Assembly: GCA_035544215.1 (NCBI GenBank)
Contig: DATKHY010000003.1
Location: 248,001 to 312,000, forward strand
Length of the DNA stretch: 64,000 nt
From: Candidatus Binatia bacterium
GTDB lineage: Bacteria > Vulcanimicrobiota > Vulcanimicrobiia > Vulcanimicrobiales > Vulcanimicrobiaceae
Direction: 5' to 3'
Shown: one piece after another, positions 59,107 through 59,459 of the stretch
Position numbering within the stretch: position 1 is the stretch's first letter
Layout: the number at the start of each line of letters is the position of its first letter
The notes under the pieces: generated by a model
Databases searched by the model: none
Told to the model about the DNA's origin: nothing
The model's input: the letters and a program-made list of their open reading frames with translations, nothing else
Position numbers and translations under genes: made by a program

Positions 59107-59199
59107 GCACCCGATTTGCCGGGGGAGCCCAACTCGAAGCCGCGGTTCGGGGTTGTAGGACGGAGTATGAAGCGGCTAGAACCGGAAGGGTCGCCGTGC

Positions 59200-59270
59200 G
59201 CGGGTATGATGTAATGGCAGCCTGCGACCTTCCCAAGGTTGATGCGTGGGTTCGATTCCCACTACCCGCT
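59200..59270 (+). tRNA. trnG: tRNA-Gly (CCC anticodon)
   Basis: Acceptor GCGGGTA/TACCCGC, short D-arm TGATGTAATGGCAGCC, anticodon stem CGACC/GGTTG with loop TTCCCAA (CCC), T-arm GTGGG-TTCGATT-CCCAC, discriminator T. CCA is not encoded. Confidence 0.93.
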
Positions 59271-59368
59271 TGGGGACCCGCGCTGCTTTGCAGCGTGGGG
59301 GCACGTAGGCGCTTGCGCCGTAGTGCCTTTAAGACTTCGGGGTCCCCCATGCGCAAAGCGCATTGGGG
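59271..59368 (+). ncRNA. Highly structured spacer between tRNA-Gly and tRNA-Cys
   Basis: Almost every base is in an inverted repeat. An outer stem GGGGACCC (59272-59279) with GGGTCCCC (59340-59347) encloses two hairpins. The first is CGCTGC-TTT-GCAGCG (59281-59295). The second is GGCAC-GTA-GGCGC-TT-GCGCC-GTA-GTGCC (59300-59327). A third hairpin CCCCA-TGCGC-AAA-GCGCA-T-TGGGG (59345-59368) shares bases with the outer stem, so the two forms exclude each other. It may be a processing spacer, a structured RNA or a palindromic repeat element. Confidence 0.5.
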
Positions 59369-59446
<78 letters not shown>

Positions 59447-59459
59447 GATTTTCCAAGTG

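Follow-up and report, generated by a model that had tools for sequence, protein, structure and literature searches.

A probable palindromic mobile element of about 100 bp between tRNA-Gly and tRNA-Cys genes in a family of Candidatus Eremiobacterota (Vulcanimicrobiota)

The question raised by this locus is what occupies the highly ordered spacer between the genes for tRNA-Gly and tRNA-Cys in the window, the 64,000-nt stretch of DNA that was analysed. A preliminary description saw more order here than a processing spacer needs, and offered a palindromic repeat element, a regulatory RNA or an RNase substrate as readings. The spacer is very probably one copy of a dispersed palindromic mobile element of about 100 bp that lacks a gene of its own: copies with a conserved structure are dispersed, some lie inside genes, relatives differ in their presence or absence, and direct repeats flank some of them. 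The features of the locus are the following.

59200..59270, plus strand: tRNA-Gly(ccc), directly 5' of the element
59271..59370, plus strand: palindromic element, matched by model R1 over positions 1-101 of 101 with 106.1 bits
59272..59279, plus strand: 5' strand of the enclosing P1 stem, GGGGACCC, from fold and alignment
59280..59296, plus strand: P2 hairpin, GCGCTGC-TTT-GCAGCGT; in other copies both arms are hypervariable and covary
59300..59327, plus strand: P3 hairpin, whose symmetric internal loop is GTA/GTA here and G-N-A opposite G-N-A across the family
59328..59338, plus strand: linker, TTTAAGACTTC, TTTnAAA-like across the family
59339..59347, plus strand: GGGGTCCCC, the P1 3' strand, whose CCCC is able to close P4 instead
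59349..59368, plus strand: P4 hairpin with the closing TGGGG (ATGCGC-AAA-GCGCAT TGGGG); in relatives' dxr/accC copies its outer arm is host coding sequence
59372..59446, plus strand: tRNA-Cys(gca), directly 3' of the element

The 98-nt spacer has a folding energy of -54.5 kcal/mol, whereas its dinucleotide shuffles average -41.7 (sd 3.4; z -3.77) and none of 200 is equally stable, which bears out the strong fold first described. In the plus-strand fold, P1 encloses P2 and P3, and P4 forms the 3' hairpin. The self-repeating hairpin of the preliminary description, GGCAC-GTA-GGCGC with GCGCC-GTA-GTGCC, is found at 59300-59327, and the competition that it saw between the last hairpin and the enclosing stem is recovered as two alternatives, the minimum free energy and centroid folds, one with the extended 3' hairpin and the other with the enclosing GGGGACCC/GGGTCCCC stem. 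The partner of the CCCC at 59344-59347 is either 59272-59275, in the enclosing stem, or 59365-59368, at the foot of the last hairpin. Rfam over 59195-59450 returns nothing at or above the gathering score except tRNA; at a relaxed threshold, matches besides tRNA are weak and far under that score.

Comparison with related genomes identifies the stretch as an insertion and not as a native tRNA-processing spacer. The neighbourhood is old, with a match to the tRNA-Gly/tRNA-Cys region in 89 of 99 family genomes, and the spacer measures 1-32 nt in 23 of the 27 distinct loci parsed, the remaining spacers being 101 nt (the window), 91 nt (G065), 94 nt (G064) and 1203 nt. Used alone as a query against the 99 genomes, the spacer matches unrelated loci at 73-85% identity over nearly its full length (G040, G041, G073). 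That the Gly-Cys pair has a regulatory or processing spacer of its own is rejected because most orthologous spacers are so short. A site-specific regulatory RNA is unsupported, since among the 27 loci the element stands there only in this genome. The missing CCA of tRNA-Gly was considered as an insertion scar and rejected, because 8 of 16 distinct tRNA-Gly genes lack an encoded CCA anyway.

The spacer could possibly be an RNase substrate. A rival reading, in which the element serves as a processing signal for RNase III or for RNase P/RNase E and helps to part tRNA-Gly from tRNA-Cys, is very improbable. It draws on the sense orientation of the element between two co-directional tRNAs and on the orientation shared with the nearest tRNA in 24 of the 30 copies that have one within 400 bp, but it is contradicted by the short spacers of the other Gly-Cys pairs and by the copies in rnpB and in protein genes. 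Read as a mobile element, the window copy would be a largely neutral passenger with little or no function, presumably co-transcribed with both tRNAs and removed during tRNA processing.

Within the genomes and contigs searched, the element occurs in a single family of Candidatus Eremiobacterota, a name that the NCBI taxonomy resolves to Vulcanimicrobiota. At E<=0.01, covariance model R1, built from eight copies, matches at least 66 of 99 family genomes and at least 27 of 38 genera, with 1-12 matches per positive genome; these counts follow strict filters and may be low, and the weakest matches may include chance ones. Among the matches listed, 33 of the 99 family genomes have none at this threshold. 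At E<=1e-4, R1 matches 45 of 149 genomes of the phylum; all 45 belong to the family, and the 50 genomes from outside it give no match. A loose pattern, which recovers 58 of 132 known matches, gives 41 stretches in GTDB r220 contigs, 40 of them from Eremiobacterota (35 so titled and five from isolate REEB354) and the last from Buchananella, where R1 gives no match; an exact core pattern gives none in these contigs. Carriage by phages or plasmids is rejected, with no match in either by distant blastn and none in viral contigs by pattern scan. No published description of this element or of Eremiobacterota palindromic elements was found in a search by titles and the starts of abstracts.

In the window's own genome, where the preliminary description had proposed to look for the same palindrome, there is one further copy, truncated and beside tRNA-Gln, so that the genome holds one full and one truncated copy only. 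The truncated copy (34.3 bits) lies at about G000:C3:422091-422182, within L332 (G000:C3:422050-422300), between the end of the tRNA-Gln gene and its repeat. The sequence preceding it resembles an inverted piece of tRNA-Gln, an arrangement also seen at L093. Head-to-tail tandem copies occur at L139 and L142, the second copy at L139 starting exactly where the first ends.

Copies are frequent beside tRNA genes, with a tRNA gene within 60 bp of 25 of 122 copies compared with 0-4 of 111-115 when positions are shifted by 700 or 1200 bp. In several copies the terminal GGGG doubles as the G-run at the 5' end of a tRNA-Ala or tRNA-Ser gene, element and gene overlapping there.

Nine genomes (G003, G009, G015, G016, G064, G065, G066, G067 and G071) have the element within RNase P RNA, the Rfam match spanning or touching it. 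From the aligned sequences and the known fold, we take these copies to lie in helix P9, except in G003, where the copy is near the 5' end. RNase P RNA is found in 88 of 99 genomes, with matches mostly of 327-426 nt without a copy and of 439-590 nt with one, except in G003 and in G066, where the contig cuts it. At L166 and L185 (G066 and G064), one RNase P RNA gene holds two inverted copies, reaching about 580 nt in G064. At L269 (G056) and L262 (G078), a P9-like hairpin, CCCCAAAA...TTTTGGGG, resembles a solo 3' hairpin of the element and is perhaps a remnant of it, whereas at L331 (G018) the same helix carries a different insertion (..CTTCGACAGGCTCAGGGTGAC..), unrelated to the element by eye.

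Copies in protein genes are read through in long open frames, an open frame alone being weak proof in GC-rich DNA, and it is the antisense frame that is usually open (..GAPPxAARPP..). Family models place several copies within proteins. Dxr with an internal element scores 366.6 bits against TIGR00243 (L123), and PF13288 spans the element in L122; ValS with an internal element, in one genome, matches NF004349 over 14-905 with the element at 211-243; and the element extends the C-terminal end of AccC at four loci (L109, L121, L147, L149), as placed by family models, other AccC genes being without it. Among 23 Dxr loci examined, of which 2 gave no motif, in-frame copies occur in six genomes from four genera (G005, G011, G040, G055, G064, G066); G010 has a truncated copy, and by eye there are remnants in further genomes. 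Among 34 AccC loci, 14 without the motif were dropped. At MnmE, GcvPB, LGT, RimP and MlaD the copies may be intergenic, because the family match starts only downstream of the copy. The names ThiG, MqnA and MetX are our presumptive reading of the proteins alone, without such a match in NCBIfam or Pfam.

In dxr and accC, the outer P4 arm consists of host codons (Y-P-K/N-R-L and L-P-N/K-L-L) whose residues are also present in genes without the element; the opposite arm complements the host arm, changing in step with it. The folding strand in dxr, accC and valS is the non-coding strand. In the dxr gene of L317 (G073), the element's place in the same Dxr loop is taken by a REVSGCH-like tandem repeat, also in frame, which makes this loop a hot spot for insertion. 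In genus g31, the element-free accC end at L341 (G065) and L340 (G064) keeps a palindrome, perfect in G065, at the position that the 3' hairpin of the element occupies in other genera; it would be either a remnant or a pre-existing target.

Covariation in relatives was the check that the preliminary description had named. An input of 126 of 213 loci (sets of 100 and 27, with L187 in both) gave 132 matches, 122 of them distinct, and the covariation set comprises 107 copies in 105 distinct rows. Standard pairs fill 96.1% of pair cells in the 107 copies against 75.4 when shuffled, and 22 of 29 pairs have two-sided changes. The covariation score is 0.504 against 0.150 for shuffled alignments (0/500 reaching it) and 0.04-0.09 for slid ones; the alignment was fitted to the model and leans towards the structure. 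From the same alignment, RNAalifold recovers P2, P3 and P4, with compensatory change in 20 of 22 pairs, but not P1, which is nearly invariant with three cells of two-sided change.

An alternative fold, in which P2 and P4 are lengthened through the same G/C runs, scores equally (96.6%, 0.503) and has somewhat more two-sided change in the lower P4 pairs, so both conformations can, on this modelling, form in most copies. The conservation in relatives that the preliminary description asked for holds for either pairing: in other copies, enclosing-stem cells are 92.8% paired and those of the extended last hairpin 95.2%. The mutually exclusive structures of the preliminary description thus stand as a property of the sequence, while their use as a switch does not follow: the hairpins are strongly supported by covariation and switching hardly at all, because the stem feet are nearly invariant. 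Its reading as a palindromic repeat element gains support from dispersal, covariation and insertion within genes together.

The pairs also carry a strand signal. G-U outnumbers A-C by 46:3 in P2, 80:2 in P3a and 15:8 in P4, and because of the large excess in P2 and P3a the plus strand is the folding strand, at least for P2 and P3. The P3 loop has G in 99 of 105 and A in 102 of 105 on its 5' side, and G in 94 of 105 (with ten gaps at this position) and A in 101 of 105 on its 3' side; two sheared G-A pairs could form in this G-N-A/G-N-A loop. The ends of the element are G-runs in nearly all 105 distinct copies.

This polarity, together with the nearly invariant internal loop, is what would be expected of a trans- or cis-acting regulatory or structural RNA gene that lies between the tRNAs by chance and is kept for an RNA function such as tRNA or mRNA processing. 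Such a gene has very little chance of being the explanation, given that the element has neither a fixed site nor a fixed neighbour, occurs in several copies per genome, yields no R1 match in a third of the family genomes at the threshold and among the matches listed above, and folds from the non-coding strand in dxr, accC and valS.

A second possibility accepts a mobile element and attributes the covariation mainly to correction of the DNA palindrome by template switching rather than to selection on the fold. It is compatible with the preferred reading and, as the main source of the covariation, unlikely. Arms that vary wildly yet match, even where one arm is host codons, speak for it, as does the small G-U excess in P4, whereas the strong excess in P2 and P3a is unexpected from a strand-symmetric DNA process.

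Direct repeats give a view of the insertions themselves. With 250-base flanks compared and four short-flank copies left out, a direct repeat flanks the element in 20 of 118 copies against 3 of 122 controls. In 11 of the 118, the right repeat begins 0-3 bases past the element and the left one ends 0-52 bases before it, with lengths of 19-78 bp and 89-100% identity; repeats of this type, abutting the 3' end, number 0 in the 122 controls. For the other 98 copies no direct repeat passes the threshold, which would overlook duplications of a few bases. At tRNA-Arg, tRNA-Val, tRNA-Gln, tRNA-Ala and what we take to be a fliG-like gene from its protein, the gene end stands intact as the left repeat, the right one being a displaced fragment. 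The repeat hits at L073 and L195 are merely neighbouring tRNA-Ala genes. A host origin of the outer P4 arm at every site was rejected: it applies to dxr and accC but fails at fliG, whose repeated gene end does not include the hairpin.

The element has been inserted at G-runs next to tRNA genes, within RNase P RNA, and within protein genes or at their ends, mostly as single copies that add up to 1-12 per positive genome; in the protein genes the antisense frame is usually the open one, so that the host gene survives. The mechanism proposed for its movement is tentative and would sooner prove wrong than right. The element would move, or have moved, as a non-autonomous unit, with some enzyme acting on its folded single strand, which would be joined at GGGG with a target duplication of variable length, the outer P4 arm often being the target itself. 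Signs of recent transposition, in the form of near-identical copies or of closely related genomes making an empty/filled pair, were not seen; the element may be extinct, because its copies have diverged.

No carrier enzyme tracks with the element among the families searched in the 99 genomes, Y1_Tnp (the IS200-type transposase), present in 4, and RVT_1 (reverse transcriptase), present in 11, both absent from the window's genome. A resident reverse transcriptase was considered and shows no clear association, with an R1 match (E<=0.01) in 9 of the 11 RVT_1 genomes against 66 of 99 overall. The scarcity of Y1_Tnp largely refutes a REP/RAYT (REPIN-like) system moved by an IS200/IS605-type tyrosine transposase, which is highly improbable: GTAG/GGAG tetranucleotides flank P3 like the REP tags described in PMC3733652, but the unit is about 100 bp with several helices, and its GNAG is internal to P3 and not terminal.

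A more specific form of the movement, and an improbable one on present evidence, is a SINE-like bacterial element whose folded plus strand would be copied into new sites under the guidance of the hairpin, by target priming or strand switching. The inner arm of the 3' hairpin would be complementary to the target beside the junction, as in dxr and accC, and the 3' end would be precise at GGGG with target duplications varying over 19-78 bp, which would leave the tRNA genes and fliG intact upstream of the insertion.

Among known systems, ERIC, NEMIS and CIR MITEs are described in PMC2229807 as small non-autonomous repeats with highly base-paired transcripts. The element is likewise small, non-autonomous and highly base-paired; it differs in having no target duplication of fixed length, the repeats where present measuring 19-78 bp. 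As to the terminal inverted repeats of MITEs, its P1 is an inverted repeat of 7-8 bp, but P4 lies outside it. REP/REPIN sequences with RAYT are also short palindromes with comparable tetranucleotides beside a hairpin, whereas the element is several times longer than the 20-40 bp given for REP in the source text, carries its tag away from the termini and is found in a family where 95 of 99 genomes lack the transposase family (Y1).

The closest likeness is to the Rickettsia palindromic elements (RPE), described in PMC2229807 and PMC10969869 as palindromes of 105-146 bp that lie in frame in protein genes and are also reported in tmRNA and RNase P RNA. The element is similarly a palindromic unit, of about 100 bp, that is dispersed in the genome, in frame inside conserved protein genes (Dxr, ValS, AccC) and inside an RNA gene (rnpB). 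It ends in GGGG, unlike the RPE of R. conorii, for which PMC3733652 describes a CGTC tag at one end. It also belongs to another phylum, has a multi-helix fold with the G-N-A/G-N-A loop and is abundant beside tRNA genes. We therefore regard it as RPE-like and not as an RPE, because the ends differ and the two are compared by their descriptions alone.

Wolbachia palindromic elements, reportedly protein-coding palindromes in another bacterium, resemble it by description in that property. To our knowledge, gene-invading in-frame palindromes are known mainly from the intracellular Rickettsia and Wolbachia, with genome decay as one explanation. The phylum in question is represented mostly by genomes from soil, with assemblies of 1.4-5.4 Mb, and the same life style there, in RNase P RNA, tRNA flanks and essential proteins, would make the phenomenon convergent and not bound to endosymbiosis. 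With more than 100 copies, empty sites, covariation between host and element and long direct repeats, the family turns the movement of palindromes without a transposase into a testable question.
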